Source of the DNA: Gulosibacter chungangensis
GTDB lineage: Bacteria; Actinomycetota; Actinomycetes; Actinomycetales; Microbacteriaceae
NCBI RefSeq assembly: GCF_008831155.1
Contig: NZ_WBKB01000006.1
Span: 124,001-188,000 of the forward strand
DNA: 64,000 bases
Direction of reading: 5' to 3'
The notes under the pieces are model-generated. The model did not search any database, was not told the origin of the DNA, and saw only the letters and a program-made list of their open reading frames with translations. The position numbers and the translations under genes are program-made. Within the stretch, counting starts at the first letter, position 1. Every line of letters starts with the position of its first letter. This document shows positions 13,577 through 31,872 of this stretch, piece after piece.

Positions 13577-13587
13577 GCTGCGACCCC

Positions 13588-14574: not shown

Positions 14575-14598
14575 GAGTTTCGCCTTTCTGCTGAGCGT

Positions 14599-15438
14599 CT
14601 AGCGTCGGATCTCGACGGGTTCGGTGAATACGTGGGTGAAGGCTTCTTCGACCTCTGGTTCGGGCGAGTTGCGCGCGAATTCGATCGCGGCTTCGACCTC
14701 GGTTTTGATCTCGGCTTCGATGTCGACGAGGATGCTCGGGTCGAGTCCCAGCTCTTCGGCGCGTGCTCGGAAGAGCATCAGCGGATCCTTATTGTCGCGC
14801 CAGTCGTCGATTTCGGATTGTTCGCGATAGTGCTCGGTGGGAAGCCCGACGGCGTGGTTTTCGTAGCGGTAGGTGCGGGTTTCGACGAGCGACGGACCTT
14901 CGCCCGCCCTGGCCCGGTCGACCGCTTTCTTCACCGCTTCGTAGACCGCGAGGAAGTCCTGCCCGTCGACGATTTCGCCGGGCATGTTGTAGGCGACCGC
15001 GCGTCCCGCGATCGAGTCGGATGCGACCACCTTGCGCCACGCGGTCAGCTCGCCATAGCCGTTGTTTTCGCAGACGTAGACGGCGGGCAGATCCCAAATC
15101 GAGGCGATATTGAGCGACTCGTGAAAGGTGCCCTCGTTGGATGCGCCGTCGCCGAAGAAGCACAGCGCCACCTTCCCATCATTCTGCAGTTTCGAGCCGA
15201 GCGCGGCGCCCGTGGCGACCGGTAGCCCCGAACCCACAATCGAGGTCTCCCCGAGTGACCCGACCGAGAAGTCGGACAGGTGCATCGAGCCTCCCTTGCC
15301 CTGGTTCACCCCGTCTTTGCGGCCCATGAGTTCGGCAAGCAAGCCTTTGATATTCGCGCCCTTGCCGATCGGGTGGCCGTGCGATCGGTGCGTGCCGACC
15401 ATGTAGTCGCTGTCTTCGAGCGCCAGACAAGATCCCAC
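14599..15438 (-). CDS. 2-oxoacid/acetoin dehydrogenase E1 alpha subunit, 5' truncated
   Basis: The thiamine diphosphate-binding subunit: GDGASNEGTFHESLN and, 25 residues on, ENNGYGE form the GDG...N cofactor motif, and THRSHGHPIGKGANIKGL and GGSMHL are typical. Only about 279 residues follow the first usable start (GTG 15438), against about 320-330 in the family. Upstream codons still read family sequence, KGELYGAFHTSTGQEASIVG, but then become unrelated and meet an in-frame TGA near 15554, with no ATG, GTG or TTG between. The break falls at a TTGAGTAG motif on the plus strand (about 15492-15499). About 45 N-terminal residues seem lost, so the operon may be inactive, or translation may use a non-standard start. 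Confidence 0.75.
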   Translation of the reverse strand: MGSCLALEDSDYMVGTHRSHGHPIGKGANIKGLLAELMGRKDGVNQGKGGSMHLSDFSVGSLGETSIVGSGLPVATGAALGSKLQNDGKVALCFFGDGASNEGTFHESLNIASIWDLPAVYVCENNGYGELTAWRKVVASDSIAGRAVAYNMPGEIVDGQDFLAVYEAVKKAVDRARAGEGPSLVETRTYRYENHAVGLPTEHYREQSEIDDWRDNKDPLMLFRARAEELGLDPSILVDIEAEIKTEVEAAIEFARNSPEPEVEEAFTHVFTEPVEIRR

Positions 15439-15664: not shown

Positions 15665-15682
15665 TGGGAAAGCGGTTACCCA
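15665..15682. promoter_or_regulatory. LacI-type operator upstream of the ABC transporter
   Basis: TGGGAAAGCGGTTACCCA, an 18-bp near-perfect palindrome of the LacI/GalR class, 36 bp before the permease start. It differs at one or two positions from the sites at 23954 and 25138 next to the lacI gene of this window. Two loose half-sites (ATGGGAAAC and ACGGGAAAA) lie at about 15551-15575. Confidence 0.75.
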
Positions 15683-15717: not shown

Positions 15718-16569
15718 ATGAGCAGCGCAACCACAGCCACCCCGGTGATTGATTCACCGCAGAACAAGCGGCGAACATCCAAGCCGAAGGCAAGTTCCTG
15801 GCGCCAGTCCGCATCCGGCTACCTCTACCCCACGATCTTTGTCCTTATCGCATTCGTCGCCTGGTGGGGCGCGACCTCCGCGGGCCTCGTCGCTCCCTAC
15901 ATCCTCCCCTCACCAGCCGACACCTTGGCGGCCTTCACCGACAACGTCGCCTACCTCTGGCAGCACACCCTCGTGACCACCTGGGAGACCGTCCTCGGCT
16001 TCCTGATCTCAGTGGTCGTCGGTATCGCCGTCGCGATCGTGATGGTCTACTCGCGCACCCTCGAGCGCACCTTCTACCCGCTCATCCTCTTCGCCCAGGT
16101 CATCCCGAAGATCGCGATCGCGCCGCTGTTCATCGTCTGGCTCGGCTTCGGCCCGCAGCCGAAGATCCTCGTCGCCGTGCTGATGGCCTTCTTCCCGATC
16201 GTGATCGCGGGCATCTCGGGCCTGCGCACCATCGACCCCGAAATCCTTGAACTCACGAGCACCATGGGCGCATCCCGCTGGAAGACCTTCATGAAGGTGC
16301 GCTTCCCGGCCGCCCTGCCCGAGCTGCTGTCCGGTATGAAGATCGCCGCCACCCTCGCGGTCACCGGTGCGGTAGTCGGTGAGTTCGTGGGCGCCAATGA
16401 GGGGCTCGGCTACGTGATCCTGCAAGCCAACGGCAACGTCGACACGGCCATGCTCTTTGCAGCCCTGATCATCATGTCGCTGCTAGGCATCCTGCTGTTC
16501 GCCGTCATCCTCGTGGCCGAACGCATCCTCGTGCCCTGGCACTCCTCACGACGCAACCTCGAGCAGTAA
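15718..16569 (+). CDS. ABC transporter permease, NitT/TauT/ThiX family
   Basis: 283 residues with an N-terminal hydrophilic stretch and about six membrane segments. The inner-membrane contact loop (EAA motif) is clear: TSTMGASRWKTFMKVRFPAA followed by LPELLSGMKIAATLAVTGAV and GEFVGANEGLGYVI, as in permeases of the sulfonate, nitrate and thiamine-precursor type. First gene of a three-gene transporter operon with its binding protein and ATPase. A LacI-type operator precedes it and links it to the sugar-type catabolic genes at 20.6-26.3 kb. Substrate unknown; the family handles small organic nutrients rather than sugars as a rule. Confidence 0.9.
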   Translation: MSSATTATPVIDSPQNKRRTSKPKASSWRQSASGYLYPTIFVLIAFVAWWGATSAGLVAPYILPSPADTLAAFTDNVAYLWQHTLVTTWETVLGFLISVVVGIAVAIVMVYSRTLERTFYPLILFAQVIPKIAIAPLFIVWLGFGPQPKILVAVLMAFFPIVIAGISGLRTIDPEILELTSTMGASRWKTFMKVRFPAALPELLSGMKIAATLAVTGAVVGEFVGANEGLGYVILQANGNVDTAMLFAALIIMSLLGILLFAVILVAERILVPWHSSRRNLEQ

Positions 16570-16621
16570 CCCGCTGCGCGCATCCATTTCACAACAATCA
16601 ACACAATCTGAGAGGCAACCA

Positions 16622-17664
16622 ATGTCAAAGAAGACACTTCGCACCACTCTCGTCGCTGCGGCGGCCGCCGCGGCACTGCTACTCACGTCCTGCTCGGGCG
16701 CGGGCGGCACGAGCCCCACGACCGAAGGTGAAGCAGCAGGTGAACTCACCGATGTGACCCTCATGCTCAACTGGTACCCCTACGGCGAGCACGCTCCCTT
16801 CTATTACGGGGTCGAGCAGGGCATCTTCGAAGAGCACGGCATCAACCTGAACATTCAGGCGGGCCAGGGCTCAACCAAGACGGTGCAGGCAACCGGCCAG
16901 AACCAGGTCGACTTCGGTTGGGCCGATACCCCCGCGGTGCTGTCGAATATCGACAAGGGTGTGGGAGTGCAGAGCGTCGGCGTGTTCCTCCAGACCACGC
17001 CTTCCGCGGTACAGGTCTTCGCGGATTCCGGCATTACCGAACCCGCCGACCTCGTGGGCAAGACCATCGCGACCTCCGCGGGTGACGCCCCGACCACCAC
17101 CTTCCCGCTCTATCTCGAGGCCGCGGGCCTCAACCCCGACGACGTCATCCAGCAGAACCTGGATGCGGCGGGCAAGATGGCAGCGATGATGAACGGTCAG
17201 GTCGATGGCCTGATTGGTTTCGCCCACGATCAGGGCCCGACCATCGCTAATGAGAGCGGCAACGAAGTTGTCTATCTGAAGTACTCGGATGTTGGCCTGA
17301 ACTTCTTCTCGAACGGGCTCATCGCGAGCAACCAGATGATCTCCGACAACCCCGAACTCGTGCAAGCCATGGTCGACGCGACCTCCGAATCCTTCGAAGC
17401 CGCTGTTGCCGACCCCGAAGCTGCCGTCGCGGCGATGGACGGCAAGGACCCGCAGATGCCGGTCTCCGAAGTGCTCCTCGAGCAGTGGACCGCAACCGCC
17501 GAGCTGCTGTCTTCACCCACCGCTGGAGACGTCGTCCCCGGCACCAACTCCACCGAAGACTGGGAGGCCACCATCGAGGTGCTTGCCGAGGCAGGCCTGA
17601 TCGAAGAAGCAAAGCCCGTGGACACCTACTTCAACGCCAGCTTCGCACCCGCGGGAGGCACTGA

Positions 17665-17668
<4 letters not shown>
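16622..17668 (+). CDS. ABC transporter substrate-binding lipoprotein, NMT1/ThiY-like
   Basis: 348 residues. Signal peptide with lipobox (LLLTSC) anchors it to the outer face of the membrane. The mature protein begins LTDVTLMLNWYPYGEHAPFY, close to the LNW.P...H.P.Y start of NMT1/ThiY proteins that bind pyrimidine-type or other nitrogen compounds. Further family features are QGSTKTVQATGQNQVDFGWAD and the hinge region GKTIATSAGDAPTT. It captures the ligand for the preceding permease. It overlaps the ATPase gene by 4 bp (ATGA). The exact ligand is not predictable from sequence. Confidence 0.88.
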
Positions 17669-18492
<824 letters not shown>

Positions 18493-18686: not shown

Positions 18687-20039
18687 TTAGTATGCGCGGC
18701 CCGGAGTGAGAATCCCTGCGGGGTCGAGCGCCGCCTTGATTGCCCGTTGCACTCGCAATTCATCATCGCTGAATTGCAAGGGCAACTCGTGAAGCTTGAC
18801 CGCCCCAATACCGTGTTCGCCGCTGATCGTCCCACCGAGGTCCAGTGCCAAGCGCGCAATATCCTCGATCACCACTTCGGCAGCCGCATAGCCTTCCGGC
18901 GTGTCCTCCGCTTCGACGGTGGGGTGCAAATTGCCGTCCCCAGCATGCGCGACGATCGAAATACCTCGGTCGTGCTTCTTCGAAAGGTCCGCGATCCCGC
19001 GAAAAACCGCTGCCAATTGAGCCACCGGTACACCCACGTCGCAAGACACTCGCAGTCCCTGCGCCGTGAGCGCAGGGTTCGCCAAACGACGGGCCTCGAG
19101 CAGGTCATCCGATTCGGAGATCGCCCAATCTTGCCCACCGTGCTGCCGACAAATCTCGACAATAGACTCAGCAGCAGCCTCAGCATCCACCCCCACAGTT
19201 TGGCCGACGAGGAGTGCCGCCCCTGGGACTCGCAGGCCAGAAGGCGCAAACGCCTCGATCAGCTCAACACTGCGAGCGTCAAGCAGTTCGAGCACCTCCA
19301 GCTGCACTGCGCTGTTGACGATGGCGGTAATGGCACGCCCGGCCGCTTCGATATCGTCGAAGTTTGCGCGGAAAGTCCTTGGTTCCCCCTCCGGCAGCGG
19401 TTTCAATCGGACGGTCGCCGACGTGATCACCCCGAGCGTGCCTTCCGAACCCGTGAAGAGGCTCGTCAGGTCAAGCCCAACGGTGTTCTTTCTCGTTCGC
19501 GCACCGGTGCGAATCACAGTGCCGTCGGCCAGCACTACCTCCAGTGCGGCAACGGAATCGCGCGTCACTCCGTGTGCAATACAGCGAAGCCCACCCGCAT
19601 TCGTCGCGATATTCCCACCAATGGTGGAGGTGCGCGCGCTCGCAGGATCGGGGGCAAAGAACAGCCCGTGATCATGCGCAGCAGCATCGAGGTCAGCGGT
19701 GACCACCCCGGCTTGCACGTCCGCGAGCCGGTTTTCGACATCGATATCGAGGATGGCGTTCATCCCCGCGAGCGAAACCACCAGCCCGCCGGGATAGGCG
19801 ACCGCCCCACCCGAGAGCCCTGTACCCGCACCGCGCACGGATACTTTCACTTCGTTTGCATGCGCCCAGGCAAGCGCAGCGGAGACATCTTCGGTTGATT
19901 CGGCCTCGACTAAAGCAAGGGGCATGCCTTCAGGCGCATATCGTGAGCTGTCACGGGCAGCTTCAGCGAGCGCAACGGGGTCAGTGATCACTCGATCACC
20001 GAGGGCATGTTGCAGCGAGGTGAGGACGGAGGTAGACAA
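18687..20039 (-). CDS. FAD-binding oxidase/dehydrogenase, GlcD/LDH-D family
   Basis: About 450 residues. N-terminal PCMH-type FAD domain: VSVRGAGTGLSGGAVAYPGG and DPASARTSTIGGNIATNAGG are the pyrophosphate-binding loops of the glycolate oxidase GlcD / D-lactate dehydrogenase family. The C-terminal domain has HAGDGNLHPT and SGEHGIGAVK, which carry the His residues of the substrate site. It oxidises a D-2-hydroxy acid to the 2-oxo acid. I choose TTG 20039 because AAAGGAA precedes it by a normal distance; an ATG at 20072 has no ribosome site. Single gene, near a pathway with glycerate kinase, so glycolate or a sugar-acid derivative is a reasonable substrate guess. Confidence 0.88.
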   Translation of the reverse strand: MSTSVLTSLQHALGDRVITDPVALAEAARDSSRYAPEGMPLALVEAESTEDVSAALAWAHANEVKVSVRGAGTGLSGGAVAYPGGLVVSLAGMNAILDIDVENRLADVQAGVVTADLDAAAHDHGLFFAPDPASARTSTIGGNIATNAGGLRCIAHGVTRDSVAALEVVLADGTVIRTGARTRKNTVGLDLTSLFTGSEGTLGVITSATVRLKPLPEGEPRTFRANFDDIEAAGRAITAIVNSAVQLEVLELLDARSVELIEAFAPSGLRVPGAALLVGQTVGVDAEAAAESIVEICRQHGGQDWAISESDDLLEARRLANPALTAQGLRVSCDVGVPVAQLAAVFRGIADLSKKHDRGISIVAHAGDGNLHPTVEAEDTPEGYAAAEVVIEDIARLALDLGGTISGEHGIGAVKLHELPLQFSDDELRVQRAIKAALDPAGILTPGRAY

Positions 20040-20331
20040 AGACGTTCCTTTCGGTAAGTGAACGCGGCGCATATTTGAGAACCGAGCGAACTAACGGGAT
20101 GTGCTGGAGAAAGGGCTCTTCGATTGTTCAGCTTCATGCTCCGGGCCGAGTGGGATCCCGCTTCGGTCGCGGAGCAATAGGGATGCAGTCAATCCAATCA
20201 CGGTCATACCGGCCAGGTAGAGGGTCACGGAGAATCGGGGTCTGATCCCGCAGGCCGATCACCTTTTTGCGCGCGAGCAGTCCCCGCAGCAGTCGGCACC
20301 TACCTGCCAGCCCACCCACCTCCCACAGACC
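20040..20331. other. intergenic stretch with a decayed terminator copy
   Basis: No gene is visible. At about 20240-20268 the sequence CTGATCCCGCAGGCCGATCA followed by CCTTTTT repeats the right half of the ABC operon terminator at 18508-18553 with a few changes; its left arm is missing. As at the first site, a family C element follows. The FAD oxidase gene is therefore flanked on both sides by related terminator plus repeat segments. Confidence 0.5.
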
Positions 20332-20599: not shown

Positions 20600-21469
20600 C
20601 TACGCCAGGGCGAACTCCGTGAGGTGCTCGCCCACCGCGGCATCGAACTTCTGAACCATCTCAGCGACGGCATCATCGTACGACTTCGCCCACAGGTCGG
20701 CGTTGAAGACCTCAACCTCAACGTCGCCCGCGTAGCCCGCGGCGTTTACTAGCGCGGTCAACCGCGCAAAATCGATCACACCGTCACCCGGCAGGTGGCG
20801 CGCGAGAAGCACATCCGCCGGCAGCGGTGTCTGCCAGTCGCACACCTGATAGGAGGCGATCCGGCCGTCGCGACCGGCTCGGGCGATCTGCGCCTCAACA
20901 TCCGGATCCCACCAGACGTGGAACGCATCCACCACCACGCCAACCGCAGAACTACCGACCCTGTCGGCGATGTCGAGCGACTGGCCGAGGGTCGAGAGCA
21001 CCGCGCGGTCCGAGGCATACATCGGATGCAGGGGCTCCAGCGCGAGCGTCACCCCGGCAGCCTCTGCCTCGGGCGCAAGCTCGGCGATGCCCTCCTCGAA
21101 GCGGGCCCGAGCATCCTCAATCGTGCCGCCCTCGGGCACGCCGCCCGCGACCATCACGAGCGTCGCAGACGATCCGGGCGCGCCAGCTTCGGCGAGCACG
21201 CGCGTCTCTTCGATCGCGACGCGGTTCGAATCGAGCGCAGCCTGGCGATTATCCGGCGAGGTCAAGAATCCAGCGCGGCAGTTGCTCGAGAATCGCAGCC
21301 CCGAGTCGCGCAGCAGCTGCGCCGCGCGCTCGAGCCCGACCTCGGCGATCGGTTCGCGCCACAGACCGATGCTCTGCAGCCCCTGCCGCACGCTCACGTG
21401 GAGTGCTTCGGCAAGCGACGCGTGCTTGATCGTGCCCTGATTCAGCGAAAGTCGCGAGTGCGCGCTCAT
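20600..21469 (-). CDS. sugar phosphate isomerase/epimerase (TIM-barrel, xylose isomerase-like)
   Basis: 289 residues of the AP endonuclease family 2 / IolE-IolI fold. Recognisable pieces are the opening SLNQGTIKHASLAEALHVSV, LALEPLHPMYASDRAVLSTL and VGVVVDAFHVWWDPDVEAQI, where conserved Glu, Asp and His bind a divalent metal, and DGVIDFARLTALVNAAGYAG near the end. It should isomerise or dehydrate a sugar or inositol derivative. Its start overlaps the DUF993 stop by 4 bp, so it is the last gene of a translationally coupled three-gene operon and is followed by a strong terminator. Confidence 0.88.
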   Translation of the reverse strand: MSAHSRLSLNQGTIKHASLAEALHVSVRQGLQSIGLWREPIAEVGLERAAQLLRDSGLRFSSNCRAGFLTSPDNRQAALDSNRVAIEETRVLAEAGAPGSSATLVMVAGGVPEGGTIEDARARFEEGIAELAPEAEAAGVTLALEPLHPMYASDRAVLSTLGQSLDIADRVGSSAVGVVVDAFHVWWDPDVEAQIARAGRDGRIASYQVCDWQTPLPADVLLARHLPGDGVIDFARLTALVNAAGYAGDVEVEVFNADLWAKSYDDAVAEMVQKFDAAVGEHLTEFALA

Positions 21470-22692
21470 GCTGCGTCTCCCTTCAGAAGTCCGTCGAGGC
21501 GGAGCATTCCGTGCCAGCGTTCGAGTGCGAGCTCCGGGCGTTCCAGCGCGCCGGATGCGTTCGCGAGTTCAACGATGCGCGAGAGGTGCGGCAGGCTGCG
21601 TGCCGAATGCAACCCACCCACCATCCGGAACGCATCCTGGTGGCCGTTGAGCCAGCTCATGAACGCAACGCCGGTCTTGTAATAGAACGTCGGGGCAGCG
21701 AAAACTTGCCGCGATAGTTCCTGGGTCGGAGTGAGGATGCGCGAAAACTCGGCTTCATCGCCCCGGTCGAGTGCCTGGATCGCGGCGGATGCATTCGGTG
21801 CCAGCACGCTGAACGCGCCAAGGAGCGCATCCGAGTAGCTGCCGTCGGCGTCCTCGCGAATCAGCTCGACGTAGTTGAAGTCGTCGCCGGTGTACATCGT
21901 GACGCCCTCGGGAAGCCGCGAGCGCACGACCCGCTCAGCCTGCGCATCCAGCAGGCTCATCTTGATGCCGCTGACGCGAGCTGCGTGCTTCGTGACGATC
22001 TCGATGAGTGTGTCGGCCGCGCGTTCCCACGCGGGGTCGCCGAAGTAGCCCGCGAGGCTCGGGTCGAAGGCGGTGCCAAGCCAGTGGATCACCGCTTTGG
22101 TCGACACCTCGGAGAGGATGCGGTCGTACACGCGCACGTAGTCGGCCGGCGACTGGGCGGCGCGGGCGAGGTGGCGGCTCGACATGATCACGGGGATCAC
22201 GCCCTGTTCCTCGGCAAAGTGCAGCTGGTCGAGGTAGGCCGCCTCGATCTCGTCAAGCGAGAGCGTCTCCTCGGTGCGGCCGTCGGTGTTCACACCCACG
22301 GCCACGCGGCCCCCGTCCGCACGCGCCGCTTCCGCGGTGCGGGCGATCAGCTCGCGGGTCGCGGCCGCGTCGAGGCCCATATTGCGCTGGGCGGTGTCCA
22401 TCGCATCCGCAACGCCCAGGCCCCAGGCCCACAGCTGGCGCCGGTAGTCGAGGGTCGCATCCCAGTCGATATCGGCGGGTGCACCGGGCACCGTTTCGCT
22501 CGTGACCTTCGGGATGACGTGGGCCGCGGCGAAGAGCTCGCGGGACTTCAGGCCGTCGGTGGGTTTCTGGAATGCGGGAGCGGCGAGTAGGGATGCGGTG
22601 TGTCGCGATCCGTCGGCACCGAGCAGTTGCAGGGTGGCACCGGTTTCGGCGCGGTCGGATGCGAGGGTTGCGGATGACTGTGTGGCGGTCAT
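21466..22692 (-). CDS. DUF993 family protein (dihydrodipicolinate synthase-like fold)
   Basis: 408 residues matching DUF993, a family related to class I aldolases such as dihydrodipicolinate synthase. Typical stretches are DIDWDATLDYRRQLWAWGLG, VADAMDTAQRNMGLDAAATR, AVIHWLGTAFDPSLAGYFGD, SGIKMSLLDAQAE and MYTGDDFNYVELI. The Lys of SGIKMSLLD is in the position where such enzymes form a Schiff base, but that is inference. No activity is established for the family to my knowledge. In this operon, between an oxidoreductase and an isomerase, an aldolase that cleaves an oxidised sugar is the simplest guess. Confidence 0.85.
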   Translation of the reverse strand: MTATQSSATLASDRAETGATLQLLGADGSRHTASLLAAPAFQKPTDGLKSRELFAAAHVIPKVTSETVPGAPADIDWDATLDYRRQLWAWGLGVADAMDTAQRNMGLDAAATRELIARTAEAARADGGRVAVGVNTDGRTEETLSLDEIEAAYLDQLHFAEEQGVIPVIMSSRHLARAAQSPADYVRVYDRILSEVSTKAVIHWLGTAFDPSLAGYFGDPAWERAADTLIEIVTKHAARVSGIKMSLLDAQAERVVRSRLPEGVTMYTGDDFNYVELIREDADGSYSDALLGAFSVLAPNASAAIQALDRGDEAEFSRILTPTQELSRQVFAAPTFYYKTGVAFMSWLNGHQDAFRMVGGLHSARSLPHLSRIVELANASGALERPELALERWHGMLRLDGLLKGDAA

Positions 22693-23891
22693 TAGGCACC
22701 TACCGGTTCTGCGACGGGCGTGGATGCGGCCTGGTTCGGTGCGATGGCGCGCTCGGCGAGCGCAACCCGGCGCCCCTCATCGTGTGAGGCGAGGGCTGCC
22801 TCGGCGAGGAGCATCCCGTCGGCTCCCGAACGGAAGTCGTAGGTGTGGTTGCCGTCGTCGAGCACGTAGCGGAGGAACTCGATCCACTGCAGCTTGAAGC
22901 CGTTTTCGGTGGGGTCGTTCTGCGGTACCTCGATCCAGTCTTCGGCGTAGTCGTGGGTGTCGGGGAGGTCCGGGTTCCAGGTTGGCTTCGGGGTGGCATT
23001 TCGCGGCTGAATCTTCGCGCCGAACAGGCCCACCACGGCGCTGCCGTGCGTGCCGTCCACGTGCAGTTCGACGAGCTCGTCGCGGTTCACACGGACGGTC
23101 CAGCTCGAGTTGAACTGCACGATCGGACCGTTCTCCAGGTCGAAGATGGCGTAGGCGGCGTCGTCGGCGGTGGCCTTGTAGGTCTCGCCGCGCTCGTCCA
23201 CGCGCTGCGGGATGTGGGTGCGGGTTTCGGTGTAGACCGAGGCGATCTTGCCGAAGAGGTTCTCGATCACGTAGTTCCAGTGCGGGAACATGTCGACCAC
23301 GATGCCGCCGCCGTCTTCCGAGCGGTAGTTCCAGCTCGGGCGCTGTGCATCCTGCCAGTCACCCTCGAAGACCCAGTAGCCGAATTCGCCGCGGACCGAA
23401 AGGATTTCTCCGAAGAAGCCGGAGTCGATTAGTCGCTTGAGCTTGAGCAGGCCCGGCAGGTAGAGCTTGTCGTGCACGACCCCGTTCTTGACCCCCGCTG
23501 CTTCGGCTTCGTCGGCGAGCGCGACGGCCTCGGCGTAGCTTTCGGCGGTGGGCTTCTCGGTGTAGATGGCCTTGCCTGCGGCGATGGCCTTGCGGATCGC
23601 GGGCACGCGCAGCTTCGTGACGAGTGCGTCGAAGTAGACGGGGAAGCCCTCCGCCGCGAGTGCCTCGTCGAGGTCGGTCGTGTACTTCTCGATGTTGTGT
23701 TTTTCGGCAAGCTCGCGAAGCTTCTCTTCATTGCGGGCGACGAGGTAGAGCTCGATCGGCTGTCGCGAGCCGTCGGAGAGCGGCACCCCGCCCTCGTCGC
23801 GCAGCGCGAGCAGCGAACGCACCAGGTGCTGGCGGTAGCCCATCCGACCGGTCGCTCCGTTAACGATGATTCCGAGTGTTTCCTTGGCCAT
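22692..23891 (-). CDS. Gfo/Idh/MocA family NAD(P)-dependent oxidoreductase
   Basis: About 399 residues from ATG 23891 (MAKETLGIIVNGATGRMGYR). The nucleotide-binding fold is followed by the family hallmark IYTEKPTAESYAEAVALADE (EKP motif) and GVVHDKLYLPGLLKLKRLID. The C-terminal half carries WNYRSEDGGGIVVDMFPHWN, where conserved Asp and His line the substrate site. It should oxidise a hydroxyl of a sugar, inositol or sugar acid. It is the first gene of the operon, with a perfect LacI-type operator 62 bp upstream, and its stop overlaps the DUF993 start by one base. Confidence 0.9.
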   Translation of the reverse strand: MAKETLGIIVNGATGRMGYRQHLVRSLLALRDEGGVPLSDGSRQPIELYLVARNEEKLRELAEKHNIEKYTTDLDEALAAEGFPVYFDALVTKLRVPAIRKAIAAGKAIYTEKPTAESYAEAVALADEAEAAGVKNGVVHDKLYLPGLLKLKRLIDSGFFGEILSVRGEFGYWVFEGDWQDAQRPSWNYRSEDGGGIVVDMFPHWNYVIENLFGKIASVYTETRTHIPQRVDERGETYKATADDAAYAIFDLENGPIVQFNSSWTVRVNRDELVELHVDGTHGSAVVGLFGAKIQPRNATPKPTWNPDLPDTHDYAEDWIEVPQNDPTENGFKLQWIEFLRYVLDDGNHTYDFRSGADGMLLAEAALASHDEGRRVALAERAIAPNQAASTPVAEPVGA

Positions 23892-23953
23892 GTCCGTCCC
23901 TTCGTCTGAGTTCTCTTCGTCGAGATATCTGCGGTGGCGTTGAGGTAACCATA

Positions 23954-23971
23954 TGGGAAAGCGCTTACCCA
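23954..23971. promoter_or_regulatory. LacI-type operator of the oxidoreductase operon
   Basis: TGGGAAAGCGCTTACCCA, an 18-bp palindrome with the central CG of LacI/GalR sites. It lies upstream of the Gfo/Idh/MocA gene (start 23891) and 62 bp after the lacI stop. Confidence 0.85.
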
Positions 23972-24033
23972 ATGCAAGTGGAAAGAAAAATTGCCCCCGA
24001 AACCTCAGCTTCAGGGGCACTGGTGAGCCGCGT

Positions 24034-25080
24034 TTAGGCGGATGCACGCTCCCGCACCGGCGTGCTTTCACGGACAATTACCGAGGTGTTTACCTTGAGA
24101 ACCTGCGGATCTCGCGCAGCGTCAGGGTCAATCGCGAGCTTCACAGCGCGATAGCCCATGTCGGCAAGTGGTGCCACGACTGTGGTCAGCGTCGGGGTCA
24201 CATCCCGCGCCGTATCGATGTCGTCAAAGCCTGCGATGGAAATATCTTTTCCGGGAGTTTTCCCAAGGTCGCGCAGCGCGGTCATCGCTCCAATCGCCAT
24301 CACATCGCTGGTGGCGAAGATCGTGTCCACTTCGGGAACGCGCGAGAGCAGGGTACGCAACCCCGTGTATCCACCGTCACGCGAAAACTCCGCCTCGACC
24401 ACCGCATCCGTCTCGAGCGAAGTGCCCGACTCTTCAAGCCCCTCACGGAACCCGGCCACGCGATCACGGTTAGTCATGAGCCGCTGCGGGCCGGTGACAA
24501 TGCCGAAGCGCTGGCCCCCGCGCTCCACCAGCACCCGGGCGAGTTCCCGCGCGCCCTCGCGATTCGCGAGTTCGACCACGTCGAAGGGTGATGGCGACTG
24601 CGAGATCAGCACGACTTTGCCGCCAGTCGAAGCGAAGGCCTCGAGCTGCTCGTCCAGGAGCGCCTGATTGGGGTCGGCAACACTCCGCGAACCACTCAGG
24701 ATGATCGCGCGCGGCCGCTGGCTGCGGAAGGTGCGCACAATATCGAGTTCGTTCTGTGGGGTGTGATCGGCAGCGGCGAGCGTCACCACGAGGCCAGCCT
24801 CGTTGGCACCACGCATGACCCCGGCAGCAATCGCGCTGAAGAAAGGGTCGGCGATATCGCTGACCACCACGGCCACCGTGGAGGAGGCCCCCTTCGCCAC
24901 AGCCTGTGCCGAGAGATTCGGCAGATACCCGAGCCGATCGGCAGTCTCCTGCACCCGCTTGCGGATATCCTCACTCACGCGCCGCGTACTGCCATTAATG
25001 GCCCGCGAGGCCGTCGCGATTGACACCCCGGCGGCCTTTGCAACCTCGCCAAGCGTGACCGGCTGACCCTTTGCGCTCAT
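24034..25080 (-). CDS. LacI/GalR family transcriptional regulator
   Basis: About 348 residues from ATG 25080. N-terminal helix-turn-helix with hinge: VTLGEVAKAAGVSIATASRA, RVSEDIRKRVQETADRLGYL. The rest is a periplasmic-binding-protein-like effector domain (VAVVVSDIADPFFSAIAAGV, ISIAGFDDIDTARDVTPTLT). It should repress the genes with the TGGGAAAGCGCTTTCCCA-type palindromes until a sugar-type effector is present. One such site is in the intergenic region between lacI and glycerate kinase, which predicts autoregulation. Confidence 0.93.
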   Translation of the reverse strand: MSAKGQPVTLGEVAKAAGVSIATASRAINGSTRRVSEDIRKRVQETADRLGYLPNLSAQAVAKGASSTVAVVVSDIADPFFSAIAAGVMRGANEAGLVVTLAAADHTPQNELDIVRTFRSQRPRAIILSGSRSVADPNQALLDEQLEAFASTGGKVVLISQSPSPFDVVELANREGARELARVLVERGGQRFGIVTGPQRLMTNRDRVAGFREGLEESGTSLETDAVVEAEFSRDGGYTGLRTLLSRVPEVDTIFATSDVMAIGAMTALRDLGKTPGKDISIAGFDDIDTARDVTPTLTTVVAPLADMGYRAVKLAIDPDAARDPQVLKVNTSVIVRESTPVRERASA

Positions 25081-25137
25081 CCCAAGCCCCCTTTCCAAGC
25101 TGTGCGGTGCGCGCCATTGCGCCTAGCACGAGCATAT

Positions 25138-25155
25138 CGGGAAACGGCTTTCCCA
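25138..25155. promoter_or_regulatory. LacI-type operator between lacI and glycerate kinase
   Basis: CGGGAAACGGCTTTCCCA, a palindrome of the same class as the sites at 15665 and 23954, placed between the divergent lacI (start 25080) and glycerate kinase (start 25185) genes. It can control both. Confidence 0.8.
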
Positions 25156-25184
25156 AACACCACAGGAGCAGATATCTTGTCCTT

Positions 25185-26303
25185 ATGCAGCGCCGCATTG
25201 TTATTGCACCAGACTCCTTCAAAGGCACCGCCACCGCTTCGGAAGTTGCGGCGGCTATTGCGCGGGGATGGCGTTCCGTACGCCCCGAGGACGCCATCGA
25301 ACTGTTGCCGATGGCCGACGGCGGTGAAGGAACAATCGATGCGCTCGAGGTTTCCGATCCGGGCTCGGCCCGCGTCGCTTGCACGGTGCGCGGGCCGGTC
25401 GGTGAACCAACTTCGGCGGAGTTATTGCGCCTGAGCGACGACTCTTGGCTGGTTGAGCTTGCGGAGACCAGCGGCATCGACAAGGTGGCCGAGGTCTCGC
25501 GCCTCACTGCCCGGCTCGCGACAACCTTCGGGCTCGGTGAAGCGATTCGATACGCGACTGTGCAGGGTGCGAAACGGGTGCTCGTCGCACTCGGCAGTAG
25601 CGCATCCACTGATGGTGGAGTAGGTGCGCTGATGGCGCTCGGGGCGCGGTTTGAGACCGCGGAGGGTGAGCCGATTCCTCTCGGAAACGCTGGGCTCGCG
25701 TCAATCGAACACGTTGATCTGTCGTCGATCGATTTGCTGCCGCCGGAGGGCATTGTTGCATTGACCGATGTCACGAATCCGCTGCTGGGGCCGGAGGGTG
25801 CTGCGGCGGTGTTTGGCCCGCAGAAGGGTGCTTCACCTGAGGATGTGCGGGAGTTTGACGCTGGACTCGCGCACCTCGCGGAGGCGTTGGGCACTTCCAA
25901 TGCCGAAGTGCCGGGGGCAGGAGCTGCGGGCGGGACCGGCTACGGGCTGCTCGCTATCGGCGCCGAAATTCAGGCGGGTGCGCTCGCCATCGCGGATGCC
26001 ATTGATCTTCCCGCGCGGATCGCGGAGGCCGACCTCGTCATCACCGGCGAAGGCAGCTTCGATGAACAGTCGCTCGCCGGGAAGGTGCCCTCGGCGGTAC
26101 TGAACCTCGCCGCAGAATCGGATGTTCCGGTTGTGGTCGTTGCGGGCCGGGTTGCCGAAGGCTTGGTTGGCAGCCAGTTTGGCCCGAGCCAGGCGCACTC
26201 CCTCACCGAACTTGCCGGTAGCGACCTGGCGGCCATGACGGAGACCGAGCGCTGGCTCGACGAAGCCGGCGCCGCGGCGGCGCGAGAGTTTGGGGACGCG
26301 TAG
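25185..26303 (+). CDS. glycerate kinase (GarK/GlxK family)
   Basis: About 372 residues. MQRRIVIAPDSFKGTATASE is the family's start, and LPMADGGEGTIDAL, VLVALGSSASTDGGVGALMA, GIVALTDVTNPLLGPEGAAA, FGPQKGA and ADLVITGEGSFDEQSLAGKV are all typical. It phosphorylates D-glycerate with ATP to give 2-phosphoglycerate, which enters glycolysis. It is divergent from lacI with a shared operator, so it is probably the last step of the pathway encoded by the oxidoreductase operon. ATG 25185 is chosen as the start of the conserved region. Confidence 0.93.
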   Translation: MQRRIVIAPDSFKGTATASEVAAAIARGWRSVRPEDAIELLPMADGGEGTIDALEVSDPGSARVACTVRGPVGEPTSAELLRLSDDSWLVELAETSGIDKVAEVSRLTARLATTFGLGEAIRYATVQGAKRVLVALGSSASTDGGVGALMALGARFETAEGEPIPLGNAGLASIEHVDLSSIDLLPPEGIVALTDVTNPLLGPEGAAAVFGPQKGASPEDVREFDAGLAHLAEALGTSNAEVPGAGAAGGTGYGLLAIGAEIQAGALAIADAIDLPARIAEADLVITGEGSFDEQSLAGKVPSAVLNLAAESDVPVVVVAGRVAEGLVGSQFGPSQAHSLTELAGSDLAAMTETERWLDEAGAAAAREFGDA

Positions 26304-26454: not shown

Positions 26455-28017
26455 CTAAGCGTCGGCCTTGATCAGGTCCGCCGCGCGCTCGCCCATAATC
26501 ATCACGGTGATGTTCGGGTTCACGGCGGTCAGCTGCGGCATGGCCGAAGCATCCACCACGCGCAAACCCGTCACGCCCTTGACACGAAGCTGCGGGTCGA
26601 GCGGCGACATTTCGTCATCCGCGGCGCCCATGCGGCAGGAGCCCGCCGGGTGGTAGACCGTGTTGTGCGTCTTCGAGACGTAGTCGGCGATCTCTTCGTC
26701 GGTCTGCACTGCTTCCCCTGGGAAGAGCTCGCGGCCGGCGAACTCCGCCATCGCGGGCTGCGCGACGATCTTGCGTGCGAGCTTGATGCCCTCGACCGCA
26801 ATCCGCATGTCATAGCCTTCGGGGTCGGTGAAGTAGCGCGGATCAACCTTCGGCTTGTCCCGATAGTCGATTGACCGCAGCCGCACCGTTCCCCGCGAGC
26901 GCGCGTGCGTCACATTCGGCGTAAGTGCGAAGGACTCGTCTGCGGTGGGGTAACCCTGGCGCATCGTGTGCATGTCGAAGGGTACGCAGCCGTAGTGCAT
27001 CATCAGGTCCGGCAGCCCGTGGTTGCCGCCCTCGTCAACCTGCGTGAAGATGCCGATCTCCCACCACTGCGTGGCGTCTCGAGTCATCGGCACCTTCGAC
27101 TCCCAGCTGATGACCGCTTCGGGGTGATCCTGCAGGTTCGAACCGACACCGGGCGAGTCCACCCGCACGTCAATGCCCACCTCGCGAAGGTGATCGGCCG
27201 GGCCGATTCCGGAGAGCATCAGCAGCTTTGGCGTATCGATCGCGCCGGCACACACGATCACTTCACGCCGAGCGGTCACCGTCTTGCGGCGGTTCTGCGG
27301 GTTATCGCTGTACTCAACACCGACCGCACGGTTGTTTTCGTCAAACAGCACCCGGCTGACGTGGCGACCGGTGAGGATGTGCAGATTCTCGCGATCGAGG
27401 TTCGGGTGCAGGTACGACACCGAGGAGGAGCCGCGAGTGCCGTCGGTCTTCGAGTTGATCTGGAAGAAATCCGCCCCGTGCGAGACAGTTTCGGCACCGT
27501 TGAAGGGCTTGCGGGGAAGACCCTGCTGCTCGCAGGCGTCGAGGATGGCCACCCCGACCTTGTCCTTCGGCGGCACGCTCATGAGGTTGATCGGACCGTC
27601 GGTACCGTGGTGGTCTCCGGTGCGGTCGTTGGTCTCGGCACGTTTGATGAGCGGACGAACCGTTGCCGCATCCCACCCCTCGGCACCAAGACGTGCCCAG
27701 TTGTCGAGGTCCTCAGCCGGCGGGTGGAAAGCGATGCAGGAGTTGTGCGAGGAGCAGCCGCCGAGCACTTTCGCGCGAGCATGGCGCATGAACGAGTTCC
27801 CGTTCTCCTGCGGTTCGATCGGGTAGTCCCAGTCGAGGCCCGACTCGAGCAGCTCGGGCCAACGCTGCAGCGTGAGCACCTCGTCCAGGTCGACGTCGCT
27901 CGGCCCCGCTTCCAGCAGCGCAACCGACACGTTCGGGTCTTCGCTCAATCGTGCGGCGACCACCGCCCCCGCCGAGCCACCGCCGACGACAACGTAATCG
28001 TAAATTTCTTCAGTCAT
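26455..28017 (-). CDS. betA: GMC oxidoreductase, probable choline dehydrogenase
   Basis: 520 residues, typical for choline dehydrogenase. N-terminal FAD fold: YDYVVVGGGSAGAVVAARLS. GMC signatures: RHARAKVLGGCSSHNSCIAF and GAIDTPKLLMLSGIGPADHL. The active-site region near the C-terminus is TVYHPAGSCRMG with VNPNITVMIMGERAADLI. It oxidises choline to betaine aldehyde and perhaps on to betaine. The order transporter, aldehyde dehydrogenase, GMC oxidase on one strand supports the choline assignment, though other alcohol substrates occur in this family. Confidence 0.88.
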   Translation of the reverse strand: MTEEIYDYVVVGGGSAGAVVAARLSEDPNVSVALLEAGPSDVDLDEVLTLQRWPELLESGLDWDYPIEPQENGNSFMRHARAKVLGGCSSHNSCIAFHPPAEDLDNWARLGAEGWDAATVRPLIKRAETNDRTGDHHGTDGPINLMSVPPKDKVGVAILDACEQQGLPRKPFNGAETVSHGADFFQINSKTDGTRGSSSVSYLHPNLDRENLHILTGRHVSRVLFDENNRAVGVEYSDNPQNRRKTVTARREVIVCAGAIDTPKLLMLSGIGPADHLREVGIDVRVDSPGVGSNLQDHPEAVISWESKVPMTRDATQWWEIGIFTQVDEGGNHGLPDLMMHYGCVPFDMHTMRQGYPTADESFALTPNVTHARSRGTVRLRSIDYRDKPKVDPRYFTDPEGYDMRIAVEGIKLARKIVAQPAMAEFAGRELFPGEAVQTDEEIADYVSKTHNTVYHPAGSCRMGAADDEMSPLDPQLRVKGVTGLRVVDASAMPQLTAVNPNITVMIMGERAADLIKADA

Positions 28018-28084
28018 GTCCTAATCCCTTCCTTGACGACAAAATCAGTTCGGCCCGATAGGCCAGCCAATGCATCCACTACGC

Positions 28085-29563
28085 CTAGCGTGGGAACCAT
28101 CCCGAGACCGCCGGTTCGGTATTCTCGTACAGGTGCTTCGCTTCGACGTACTCGCCGAGGCCGGTAGGCCCGAGCTCACGCCCGACGCCCGACATCTTGA
28201 ATCCGCCCCACTCGGCCTGCGGTAGGTACGGGTGGAAGTCGTTGATCCACACGGTGCCCGCACGAATCGCACGCGAGACGCGGTTCGCAACGCCTCGGTC
28301 GGAGGTCCACACGGCACCTGCGAGACCGTATTCGGTGTGGTTCGCGAGCGCGATCGCTTCCTCTTCGGTGGAGAAGGTTTCCACCGTGATGACCGGGCCG
28401 AAGCCCTCTTCGATCACGACGGACATGTCCGCCGTGCACTGGTCAAGGATCGTGGGTGCGTAGTAGTAGCCCTGCTCGTGTTCGGGGCCACCCCAGTTGC
28501 CGCCGACTCGCAGACGTGCACCGCCCTCGATGCCGCGGTTGACGTAGTCGGTGACCTTGTCGCGGTGCTCCTTCGAAATAAGCGGACCAGTTTCTGCCTT
28601 CTCGTCGAACGGCCCACCCATGACAATGTTCTCGGCGTGCTTGACGAGTTCGTCCACGAATTTCTCGGCGATCGTGTCCTGCACGATTAGGCGGGTGCCA
28701 GCCGAGCAGACCTGTCCGGAGTCAACGAAGGCGGCGTTCAGTGCGTTGTCGACGGCAGCATCGAAGTCGGCGTCGGCAAAGACCACGTTCGGGTTCTTGC
28801 CTCCGAGTTCCAGAGCAACCTTCTTGACCGACTTCGCCGCGCTCTCGGCAATCTTGCGACCGGTCACGAGCCCACCGGTGAACGACACGAGGTCAATATC
28901 AGGATGCGAAGACAACGGCGCCCCGACTTCCCCACCCGCACCGAGTACGAGGTTCGCGACGCCCGCAGGCAGCCCGAGATCCTCAAACACCTGCATGGTC
29001 AGGATCGTGGTGTGCGGGGTGAGCTCGGCGGGCTTAATCACAAACGAGTTCCCGGCCGCGAGCGCCGGCGCAAGCTTCCACGCGGCTTGCAGCAGCGGGT
29101 AGTTCCACGGCGTGATCATGCCGCAGACCCCAACGGGCTCGTAGACGATACGCGAAATCACACTCGAGTCACCCGCATCCACCAGGCGCCCCGGGTGCTG
29201 GTCGGCGATCTTCCCGAAGTAGCGGAAGCAGGAAATAATGTCGTCCATGTCGCCCTCGGCCTCGACCAGGCGCTTGCCGGTGTCGAGCGCCTCAGCGCGA
29301 GCAAATGCATCCTTGCGGGCGAGGATCTCGTCGGCGACCTTCAGCAGGAAGTCACCGCGCTCCCCCGCGGGCACGTTTGCCCAAACTCCGGAGTCGAAGG
29401 ATGCGCGGGCTGCGGCGATCGCGGCCTCGGTGTCGGATGCGGTGGCTTCCGACACGACGCCGACCTCACTGCCGTCGGCAGGGCAATAAATCGTTCGGGT
29501 TTCGCCCGAAGAGGAGGGGAGCCAGGACCCATTAATGAATAGCGTGGCGGTCTGTTCGCTCAT
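28085..29563 (-). CDS. betB: aldehyde dehydrogenase, probable betaine aldehyde dehydrogenase
   Basis: 492 residues. Catalytic features: VALELGGKNPNVVF with the general-base Glu and, about 34 residues on, VDSGQVCSAGTRLIVQ with the nucleophilic Cys. The N-terminus has TPWNYPLLQAAWKLAPALAA, and EEGFGPVITVETFSTEEEA is near the end. It oxidises betaine aldehyde to glycine betaine with NAD(P). It starts 2 bp after the transporter stop and lies 67 bp before the GMC oxidase gene. Confidence 0.9.
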   Translation of the reverse strand: MSEQTATLFINGSWLPSSSGETRTIYCPADGSEVGVVSEATASDTEAAIAAARASFDSGVWANVPAGERGDFLLKVADEILARKDAFARAEALDTGKRLVEAEGDMDDIISCFRYFGKIADQHPGRLVDAGDSSVISRIVYEPVGVCGMITPWNYPLLQAAWKLAPALAAGNSFVIKPAELTPHTTILTMQVFEDLGLPAGVANLVLGAGGEVGAPLSSHPDIDLVSFTGGLVTGRKIAESAAKSVKKVALELGGKNPNVVFADADFDAAVDNALNAAFVDSGQVCSAGTRLIVQDTIAEKFVDELVKHAENIVMGGPFDEKAETGPLISKEHRDKVTDYVNRGIEGGARLRVGGNWGGPEHEQGYYYAPTILDQCTADMSVVIEEGFGPVITVETFSTEEEAIALANHTEYGLAGAVWTSDRGVANRVSRAIRAGTVWINDFHPYLPQAEWGGFKMSGVGRELGPTGLGEYVEAKHLYENTEPAVSGWFPR

Positions 29564-29565
29564 GG

Positions 29566-31872
29566 TTATGCTTTCGCTCCTTGGTCAGTATCGGGGTCAG
29601 TATTGGTGTTGCTGCCGCGGTTCGGCTCACTCGCGGGCACCTCTTCGACCGTAACGAGGGAAGCCGATTGGATATCCAGCTTCAACGCTTCGGTGTCTGG
29701 GCTCAGCTGGTCGCTGTCGTCCCATTCCTCGGGGATTTCAACTCCAGGAATTGCCGTGGGCGCCCCGCCGTTACCGATCGCGGCCATGTACGCCATATGC
29801 GCGTCGTAAGCGTCGAGCACATCCGCGATGACCTGTTCCTTGGTGTAGCCGTAGATGTCCTTGCCCTGCGAGCCGGTGGCCGAGAAGATCTCCACCTTGA
29901 AGAAGATTTCTTCCACCGCGGAGAGGTTCGTCGCGTAGTTCGGCACGTTGTAGGCGACGGGGTAGGCCTGGTATTTGAATTCGTCTTGGTGCGGGAATCG
30001 CACGAGCAGGTCGATATACGGAATTGGGTATTCCGGATGCTCGCCCCGCTGGCAGGTCACGTCGGCTCCCAGCTTCCGCAGCTCGGCAGCGACCTCTTCC
30101 ACGGCCGGGGTGGCGACCTCGTCGATGTATTTCCCGGCCTGCTCAGCGGTAGCCCAGTTCATCCGGCGACGCAGTCGCTGACGCCAATTCTTGTTGGCGA
30201 CGTGGTCACCCGTGCGGCTGGATAGCATGCCGGGGAAGGCAGCCCTCCGCGCATCCATATTGCGGCTCTCGGCGCTCAGAACCCGGTAGAGGCTGAACAT
30301 CATCAAGTAGACGACAATCGAGAACGGCAGACCGATGACCACGGTCGCGGCCTGCAGTGTGTAGACGCCGTCAATGAAGAGCATCGCGAGGGTGAGCGCA
30401 CCGGTGACGACGGCCCAGAAGATGCGCAGCCAGGGCGCGCCATCGGAGTTTTCGCCTTCGGTCGCGGGCTTCGAGGTGAGGTTCGCCATCACGAGCGAAC
30501 CGGAGTCGGCCGAGGTGACATAGAAGAGGAGCCCGGTGACCACCGCAAGGCCGATGCTGAAGGTGGCGCCGGGGTAGTTTGCGAGCAGGTTGAAGAAGCC
30601 GGATTCCGGCAGGCTGATCGCGAGTTCGAGGAATTCGCTGTCGCCCGCGCGGAAGAAGTCGATCGCGGCGTTTCCGAAGACCGAGATCCACAGCAGGATG
30701 AAGATGAACGGGATGATCAGCACGCCCAAGATGAACTGGCGCAGCGTGCGGCCGCGCGAGATGCGCGCGAGGAAGAGGCCGACGAAGGCGGCCCAGGCGA
30801 TCCACCAGGCCCAGAAGAAGAGCGTCCAGTCCTTCATCCAGTCGCCCGATGGGTACGCCTCGGAGCCAGCGGTGTAACCGAAGGTGTTCATCATCATGCC
30901 GCCAAAGCGGCTCACAAAGTCACCGATGTTCTGCACGAGCTGGTTGAGCAGCTGCGGGGTGTTCCCCGAGAACAGCACGAAGAGCATCAGGATGATGCAC
31001 AGCACCACGTTGAGTTCGGAGAGTCGGCGGATGCCCTTGTCGACACCCGTCACGGTCGAGATAACCGTAATGCCGACGGCAATCGCCATCAGTGCGATCT
31101 GGACCGAGATGTTGTTCGGGATCCCGAACATGTACGACAGCCCGAAGTTGAGGAACACCACACCAATACCGAGCGAGACCGCGATACCGAAAATCGTGCC
31201 GAGCACAGCCGCCACGTCAACCGCGTGGCCCGGGATGCCTTTGACTCGCTTCCCGAAGATGGGCGCGAGGGCAGAACGGATGCTCAGGGGCAGGTGGTAC
31301 CGGTAGGCAAACAGGCCGATGCCCATACCCATGAGGGCATAGAGTGCCCAGCCGGGGATTCCGTAGTGGAACATCGTCCACAACGGCGCCATCCGGGCCG
31401 CTTCGTCGGACATGGATTCAACGTCCGGCGGGGTGAGGAGGTTCGTCGCCGGCCCCGAGATGCCGAAGAACATCAGGTCCACACCGATACCGGCGGCAAA
31501 CAGCATTGAAGCCCAGGTAAACATGTTGTACCTGGGCTTCGAGTGGTCGGGGCCGATCTTGACGTTGCCGACCTTCGTGAGGGCGACGACGAGGACGAAG
31601 ACGACGACAATCGTGACGGTGAGGACGTAGTACCAACCGAGGTTGGTACCGATCCAGTCCATCGAGCCGAAGATGACGGTTTCTGCTTGGCTTGGGAAGA
31701 GCCAAGCCCAAATCGTGAAGCCAATGATGATCACCGCGGTCGTGATGAACACGGGCCAGTTGACCTTGGGGTAGGTCTTCTTTCCGGGTGGGGATGCTGT
31801 CGCCGGTTTGGGTTCACCCCCGCCCTGAGAACTCAAAATTGGCTCGTTTTGCGGATTCGCGGGGATGTCCAC
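29566..31872 (-). CDS. betT: BCCT family choline/betaine transporter with long C-terminal domain
   Basis: 768 residues. The first 540 or so hold twelve membrane segments with the family motifs HYGIPGWALYALMGMGIG and WWIAWAAFVGLFLARISRGR. The remaining 220 residues are soluble, as in BetT-type carriers whose cytoplasmic tail senses osmotic stress; it contains YIDLLVRFPHQDEFKYQAYP and VEEIFFKVEIFSATGSQGKD. The carrier imports choline (or betaine) with the proton or sodium gradient. It heads the betT-betB-betA operon, so imported choline is converted to the osmoprotectant glycine betaine. No betI repressor is adjacent. Confidence 0.92.
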   Translation of the reverse strand: MDIPANPQNEPILSSQGGGEPKPATASPPGKKTYPKVNWPVFITTAVIIIGFTIWAWLFPSQAETVIFGSMDWIGTNLGWYYVLTVTIVVVFVLVVALTKVGNVKIGPDHSKPRYNMFTWASMLFAAGIGVDLMFFGISGPATNLLTPPDVESMSDEAARMAPLWTMFHYGIPGWALYALMGMGIGLFAYRYHLPLSIRSALAPIFGKRVKGIPGHAVDVAAVLGTIFGIAVSLGIGVVFLNFGLSYMFGIPNNISVQIALMAIAVGITVISTVTGVDKGIRRLSELNVVLCIILMLFVLFSGNTPQLLNQLVQNIGDFVSRFGGMMMNTFGYTAGSEAYPSGDWMKDWTLFFWAWWIAWAAFVGLFLARISRGRTLRQFILGVLIIPFIFILLWISVFGNAAIDFFRAGDSEFLELAISLPESGFFNLLANYPGATFSIGLAVVTGLLFYVTSADSGSLVMANLTSKPATEGENSDGAPWLRIFWAVVTGALTLAMLFIDGVYTLQAATVVIGLPFSIVVYLMMFSLYRVLSAESRNMDARRAAFPGMLSSRTGDHVANKNWRQRLRRRMNWATAEQAGKYIDEVATPAVEEVAAELRKLGADVTCQRGEHPEYPIPYIDLLVRFPHQDEFKYQAYPVAYNVPNYATNLSAVEEIFFKVEIFSATGSQGKDIYGYTKEQVIADVLDAYDAHMAYMAAIGNGGAPTAIPGVEIPEEWDDSDQLSPDTEALKLDIQSASLVTVEEVPASEPNRGSNTNTDPDTDQGAKA

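Follow-up and report, generated by a model that had tools for sequence, protein, structure and literature searches.

A probable catabolic module around the DUF993 family in Gulosibacter chungangensis

The 64,000-nucleotide stretch of the Gulosibacter chungangensis genome analysed in this study (contig NZ_WBKB01000006.1, positions 124,001 to 188,000; hereafter the window) carries a DUF993 gene between genes for a Gfo/Idh/MocA dehydrogenase (gfo) and a xylose-isomerase-like triosephosphate-isomerase (TIM) barrel. Together with a LacI-family regulator, a glycerate kinase and an ATP-binding cassette (ABC) importer, this triad probably forms an inducible, self-contained catabolic module that would convert a polyhydroxy compound to glycerate. 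What is new here is a catabolic module of known superfamilies arranged around an enzyme family without an assigned function. Because the module links the widespread DUF993 to glycerate as well as to a regulator, an importer, a dehydrogenase and an isomerase, the function of DUF993 can be tested directly.

An initial annotation of the window, made from its letters, had assigned five genes at 20600-26303 to these families, and domain matches place all five as it described (Table 1). The triad is translationally coupled, as had been proposed: the gfo stop and the DUF993 start share 1 base, and DUF993 and the isomerase gene share 4 bases. The lacI gene, for which an ATG near 25080 is a likelier start than the called 25098, and the glycerate kinase gene adjoin the triad. 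They were said to share operators with it, and we found the perfect operator TGGGAAAGCGCTTACCCA 63 bases upstream of gfo and a copy with two mismatches before the kinase. The kinase scores 325.5 bits against a TIGR00045 subfamily cut-off of 168.45. The module exceeds the annotated interval, which had missed a third operator, also perfect, and an NMT1/THI5-type ABC importer at 15718-18492, both probably belonging to the regulon.

Table 1. Genes and operators of the module in the window
Feature	Position	Strand	Basis
LacI-type operator TGGGAAAGCGGTTACCCA, before the importer	15665-15682	+	Perfect copy; counterpart sites in congeners
ABC importer permease (BPD_transp_1)	15718-16569	+	Domain match; 83% orthologues in both DUF993-bearing congeners
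NMT1/THI5-type substrate-binding protein	16622-17668	+	PF09084 E 2.8e-46; 3ix1 nearest solved chain
ABC importer ATPase	17665-18492	+	Domain match; congener loci
Xylose-isomerase-like TIM barrel (putative keto-isomerase/epimerase)	20600-21469	-	PF01261 E 5.1e-34
DUF993 protein (K244, H203), candidate Schiff-base lyase with a predicted dihydrodipicolinate-synthase (DHDPS) fold	21466-22692	-	PF06187 E 2.5e-155
Gfo/Idh/MocA NAD(P)-dependent dehydrogenase	22692-23891	-	PF22725, PF02894, PF01408; 3oqb E 9.6e-134
LacI-type operator TGGGAAAGCGCTTACCCA, before gfo	23954-23971	+	Perfect; same-place sites in related loci
LacI-family regulator	24034-25098	-	PF00356, PF13377
Weaker operator copy, between the lacI and kinase genes	25138-25155	+	2 mismatches
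Glycerate kinase, PF02595 type	25185-26303	+	E 3.1e-107; TIGR00045

Operators, importer and congener loci

With up to three mismatches allowed, the operator pattern gave 7 strand-matches in the window against a shuffle mean of 1.33, and none of 100 shuffles reached 7. Perfect copies occur only twice in the whole 3.24 Mb assembly, and both lie at the module, before the importer and before gfo. When up to two mismatches are allowed, four places are found in the assembly, namely the three module sites and a weak one on a different contig.

Operator and binding-protein searches were extended to six further genomes from the genus, two with DUF993 and four without. Both DUF993-bearing congeners hold the same eight genes in one contiguous block, with the importer genes followed by isomerase, DUF993, gfo, lacI and the kinase gene and no room for another gene. 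Each has two one-mismatch sites, before gfo and before the permease gene, and one weaker site elsewhere. An orthologue of the binding protein (78-79% identity) occurs only in these two, while the best matches in the four DUF993-free genomes reach 28-29% over most of the length and are not orthologues. With the window counted, the importer orthologue is thus present in 3/3 DUF993-positive and 0/4 DUF993-negative genomes of the genus.

Comparable arrangements recur beyond the genus. A scan of genome contigs supplied the best 80 of at least 561 DUF993 relatives, which are hence mostly Actinomycetota and of which 79 have a called DUF993 gene; together with 8 plasmid loci they make up a set of 88 loci, and neither sample is random. 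An idealised operator with up to three mismatches matched 46 sites in the 88 loci and none in three block-shuffled versions, and 27 of the 88 have an operator-like site in the 250 nt preceding gfo or lacI. Microbacterium murale (L052), Nocardia (L082) and Micromonospora (L116) also have all eight gene types, in three further arrangements. Furthermore, an NMT1 importer adjoins the triad in two loci of Rhodococcus type (L098, L099) and in Mycolicibacterium (L122). In three of these six loci (L052, L082, L122), an operator-like site precedes the permease gene.

Conservation of the triad and linkage to glycerate kinase

The initial annotation had expected these families to occur together elsewhere, and they do. 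In the genome-contig scan, gfo precedes DUF993 in 77/79 loci and the isomerase gene follows it in 78/79, giving a full triad in 77/79, and a LacI-family gene lies within four genes of DUF993 in 63/79. By called starts, overlaps of 1 or 4 bases are present at 54 of the 77 gfo-DUF993 junctions and at 70 of the 78 DUF993-isomerase junctions. Among the plasmid loci, the triad is complete in 3/8.

DUF993 is present in 80 of the 299 sampled genomes of the window's family, and also on Pseudomonadota plasmids and in other bacteria. The distance between DUF993 and a PF02595 kinase gene is at most 5 kb in 23 of these 80 family genomes, at most 10 kb in 27 and at most 20 kb in 35, while random placement would, by a rough estimate, put about 0.3 of 80 within 5 kb. 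Moreover, at 8 of 19 proteobacterial DUF993 loci (a raw count covering six genera, some of them Alphaproteobacteria), the kinase is of the DUF4147+MOFRL type; the 19 were picked by hand from 147 plasmid records and include two species twice. We take the DUF4147+MOFRL family to be glycerate 2-kinases. It is unrelated to PF02595, and the exchange of one kinase for the other supports glycerate as a product on independent grounds. The 'GK' label of one locus (L009), an unverified cluster member in which no kinase is annotated, was left out of the kinase counts.

Two further loci drew attention. On a Streptomyces plasmid (L008, 8025-9212), the DUF993 gene adjoins a type I polyketide synthase, and its product is altered at the near-invariant positions A101, Q102, R173, S246 and D271; it is possibly a biosynthetic offshoot. 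In a record titled Vibrio cholerae 35D (L060), the DUF993 locus is 59% identical to that of the window and has the actinobacterial gene order; mislabelling or contamination of this record is possible.

Residues and relatives of the three enzymes

The DUF993 protein scores 517.6 bits against the PF06187 gathering score of 24, and is 47% identical to the solved Sinorhizobium meliloti SMc04132 chain (4dnh), a DUF993 crystal structure dating from 2012. DUF993 is predicted to have the DHDPS fold, a TIM barrel of the class I aldolase superfamily, in agreement with the aldolase-like fold first suggested. K244 aligns with the DapA lysine that we take to be the Schiff-base residue. Homologues were checked for loss of this residue, and both K244 and H203 are invariant in 102/102 DUF993 sequences. 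In the alignment to DapA, H203 stands at the catalytic Tyr and L175 at the second Tyr. The DapA motif GTTGE corresponds to D99-T100-A101-Q102-R103, in which one Thr is kept as T100 and the second is replaced by A101. E. coli DHDPS uses a Tyr/Thr/Tyr proton relay, which is incomplete in DUF993, with both Tyr lost and the Thr retained as T100. Within the DHDPS/N-acetylneuraminate lyase superfamily, DUF993 thus differs by H203, L175 and A101, and Pfam DHDPS (PF00701) gave no match to the window protein at E 0.001.

The isomerase scores 118.5 bits against the PF01261 cut-off of 31.1. Its relatives are S. meliloti SMc04130 (3ju2/3qc0; 44% identity to the solved chain) and 7vpf, followed by IolI (1i60, E 1.2e-19). 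IolI, an isomerase, is its nearest characterised relative. E145, D181 and E251 are kept in 86/86 sequences, and position 208 is occupied by Q in 80 of them and by H in the other 6. In related isomerases, E, D, H/Q and E presumably bind a divalent metal, and we presume the same of E145, D181, Q208 and E251. The best NCBIfam match, the hydroxypyruvate isomerase model TIGR03234, reaches 41.4 bits against an equivalog cut-off of 353.45, and a 2-oxo-tetronate isomerase match is also listed under its cut-off; neither assignment was adopted. Q208 was likewise dropped as a sign of hydroxypyruvate isomerase, since relatives have H at this position.

The dehydrogenase passes the Gfo/Idh/MocA cut-offs of Pfam, and among solved chains 3oqb is closest to it in sequence. 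E112-K113-P114, D200 and H204 are invariant in 29 sequences. Two specific assignments were rejected: levoglucosan dehydrogenase, its best NCBIfam match (NF052479, 58.8 bits against an equivalog cut-off of 650), and myo-inositol 2-dehydrogenase (TIGR04380, 56.6 bits against 355).

DUF993 had been described as lacking an established reaction, and none is assigned in what we found. A literature search limited to open papers found no mention of DUF993 or PF06187. SMc04130 and SMc04132 (3ju2, 3qc0, 4dnh), the closest counterparts, are known as structural-genomics entries and from an expression table, with no assigned reaction found; this PhaR expression table lists SMc04132 together with an oxidoreductase, SMc04133 (PMC12542648).

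Proposed pathway and alternatives

In the pathway that we favour, a small polyhydroxylated, possibly acidic compound would be imported by the dedicated NMT1-type ABC importer and would free the LacI repressor from the three operators. The Gfo/Idh/MocA enzyme would then oxidise a hydroxyl to a ketone, and the TIM-barrel enzyme, presumably metal-dependent, would catalyse a shift or an epimerisation at the carbonyl. DUF993 may form a Schiff base through K244 and cleave a C-C bond, with H203 replacing the usual Tyr. One cleavage product would yield glycerate, which the glycerate kinase would phosphorylate into glycolysis. The initial annotation had ordered oxidation, isomerisation, aldol-type cleavage and glycerate phosphorylation in this way. 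The regulated catabolic module, the predicted fold, the lysine and the recurrent kinase linkage are supported, while retro-aldol cleavage, the substrate and the order of steps stay conjectural.

Several observations weigh against this reading. The reversed-pattern control, across the whole assembly with up to two mismatches, gave 5 strand-matches versus 8 for the real pattern, and the four congeners without DUF993 also show scattered operator-like sites with 1-2 mismatches. Because loose matches barely exceed the control, the argument rests on the perfect sites and their positions, not on their count; the motif is of a general LacI kind, so part of the sites serve other regulators. A PF02595 kinase is present in 79/80 DUF993 genomes of the family, but also in 166/219 others (245/299 in total), so its presence says little and its position says more. 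A recognised glycerate kinase lies within about 10 kb in only 14/79 loci of the genome-contig scan, and by name 3 of these 14 are outside the window's family (Gordonia, Nocardia, Micromonospora); genomes of the same genus or related ones are not independent in the linkage counts. In one family locus (L154), genes for the kinase, DUF993 and the isomerase are present, whereas gfo has no match. The type of importer depends on lineage, being NMT1 in the window and an SBP_bac_8-type ABC importer in Microbacterium and Curtobacterium loci, so that different lineages may use different substrates. DUF993 lacks the DHDPS tyrosines, and since the catalytic tyrosines of pyruvate lyases are not kept, reading it as a simple pyruvate-type aldolase is only one option.

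A proteobacterial layout without Gfo also falls outside the proposed scheme. It has a short-chain dehydrogenase/reductase (SDR) before DUF993, together with CoA-transferase, enoyl-CoA hydratase and acyl-CoA dehydrogenase. Five loci (L006, L149, L157, L160, L146) combine DUF993 with CoA-transferase, SDR and MOFRL kinase and lack Gfo, and four of them also have enoyl-CoA hydratase, acyl-CoA dehydrogenase and electron-transfer flavoprotein. This layout suggests that the second cleavage product may become a CoA ester there.

A more specific, tentative and rather improbable reading has DUF993 acting as a Schiff-base C-C hydrolase (retro-Claisen), with His for Tyr, as a new reaction class of the DHDPS superfamily. 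The Gfo enzyme and the isomerase would together produce a 1,3-dicarbonyl, which DUF993 would split with direct release of glycerate. Direct release would explain why the kinase recurs without any accompanying reductase being noticed, and, if true, would amount to a new, widespread route for a cyclitol, sugar or sugar acid.

Unlikely, in our estimate, is a sugar-acid route, in which an aldonate-like acid would be imported and oxidised by the Gfo enzyme to a 2-keto acid. DUF993 would cleave this acid by a retro-aldol reaction, giving an aldehyde and either hydroxypyruvate or tartronate semialdehyde, the PF01261 enzyme would act as hydroxypyruvate isomerase, and a reductase would supply glycerate. 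The NCBIfam matches of the isomerase to hydroxypyruvate and 2-oxo-tetronate isomerases point this way, although the score of the former is far short of its cut-off. T100 of the GTTGE motif is retained, whereas the second Thr and the tyrosines are lost. The glycerate kinase linkage would fit, and in some Alphaproteobacteria the triad has nearby tripartite tricarboxylate (TTT) or tripartite ATP-independent periplasmic (TRAP) transporters, which usually carry carboxylates. However, no tartronate-semialdehyde or hydroxypyruvate reductase was noticed in the window module or the congener blocks, for which no dedicated survey was made; locus L002 has one 2-hydroxyacid dehydrogenase, at a distance of about 8.5 kb from DUF993.

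Known pathways offer partial likenesses. The non-phosphorylative Entner-Doudoroff pathway has a 2-keto-3-deoxygluconate aldolase of DHDPS fold and an exit through glycerate kinase. A dehydratase acts there and an isomerase here, and DUF993 lacks the superfamily Tyr. The myo-inositol enzymes IolG and IolI share with the module an IolG-like family, matched below cut-off, and the closest characterised isomerase, but the ring is opened there by a thiamine pyrophosphate (TPP) enzyme, where the window module has a DHDPS-fold protein. Levoglucosan breakdown by LgdA-LgdB1-LgdB2-LgdC shares a Gfo dehydrogenase and PF01261 enzymes, but the portions of text searched name neither a DHDPS-like protein nor glycerate (PMC7676230; PMC10066097). 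C-glycoside cleavage by DgpA-DgpB/C shares Gfo oxidation followed by an enzyme of xylose-isomerase-like fold, with no DHDPS-like protein named in the text seen (PMC8563793), and the window dehydrogenase is only weakly similar (9m37, E 1.5e-7).

The last two systems suggest a quite unlikely alternative, a glycoside or glycerate-conjugate route. The Gfo enzyme would form a 3-keto glycoside, the PF01261 enzyme would beta-eliminate a glycerate aglycone, and DUF993 would handle the keto-sugar remainder. Gfo and PF01261-type partners are reported to act so in the levoglucosan and C-glycoside papers, and levoglucosan dehydrogenase is the top NCBIfam match of the dehydrogenase. Single loci also have SBP_bac_8-type importers or GH42, GH95 or ThuA neighbours. 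Nevertheless, that match is far under its equivalog cut-off, a word search of two of the comparator papers found no DHDPS-like enzyme named in the text covered, and the PF01261 protein is closest, among characterised proteins, to the isomerase IolI.

The importer might instead be an ordinary thiamine-precursor transporter that lies nearby by chance, which would leave the triad, lacI and kinase as the pathway. The binding protein scores 158.6 bits against the PF09084 cut-off of 20.5, and its nearest solved chain by sequence is 3ix1 (E 6.6e-19), a formyl-aminopyrimidine-binding protein that binds a thiamine pyrimidine precursor. This explanation is very unlikely, given the perfect operator before the importer, the tracking of DUF993 by its orthologue across seven same-genus genomes, and its position beside the triad in Nocardia, two Rhodococcus-type loci, Mycolicibacterium, Micromonospora and Microbacterium. 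A chance neighbourhood or relic without joint function is scarcely credible, being contradicted by the kept order, coupling, operators and invariant residues in many genera.

Three neighbouring groups of genes were considered as members and set aside. The GlcD-like FAD oxidase at 18687-20072 is an extra in the window, because in both congeners the triad follows the importer with neither a counterpart nor space for one in between. Genes for a TPP-dependent E1/E2 complex at 12287-15438 were not supported, since congener stretches match at only 33-37%. They encode E1-alpha, E1-beta and E2 of a 2-oxoacid or acetoin-type dehydrogenase and diverge from the importer operator, with which a shared control region is possible. 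The glucose-methanol-choline (GMC) oxidoreductase and aldehyde dehydrogenase genes at 26455-29563 had no match in two 20-kb congener stretches, the only ones compared. At 26455-31872, the GMC oxidoreductase, which resembles choline dehydrogenase, is followed, judged by eye, by an aldehyde dehydrogenase and a BCCT-like transporter, and these genes probably serve glycine-betaine synthesis.

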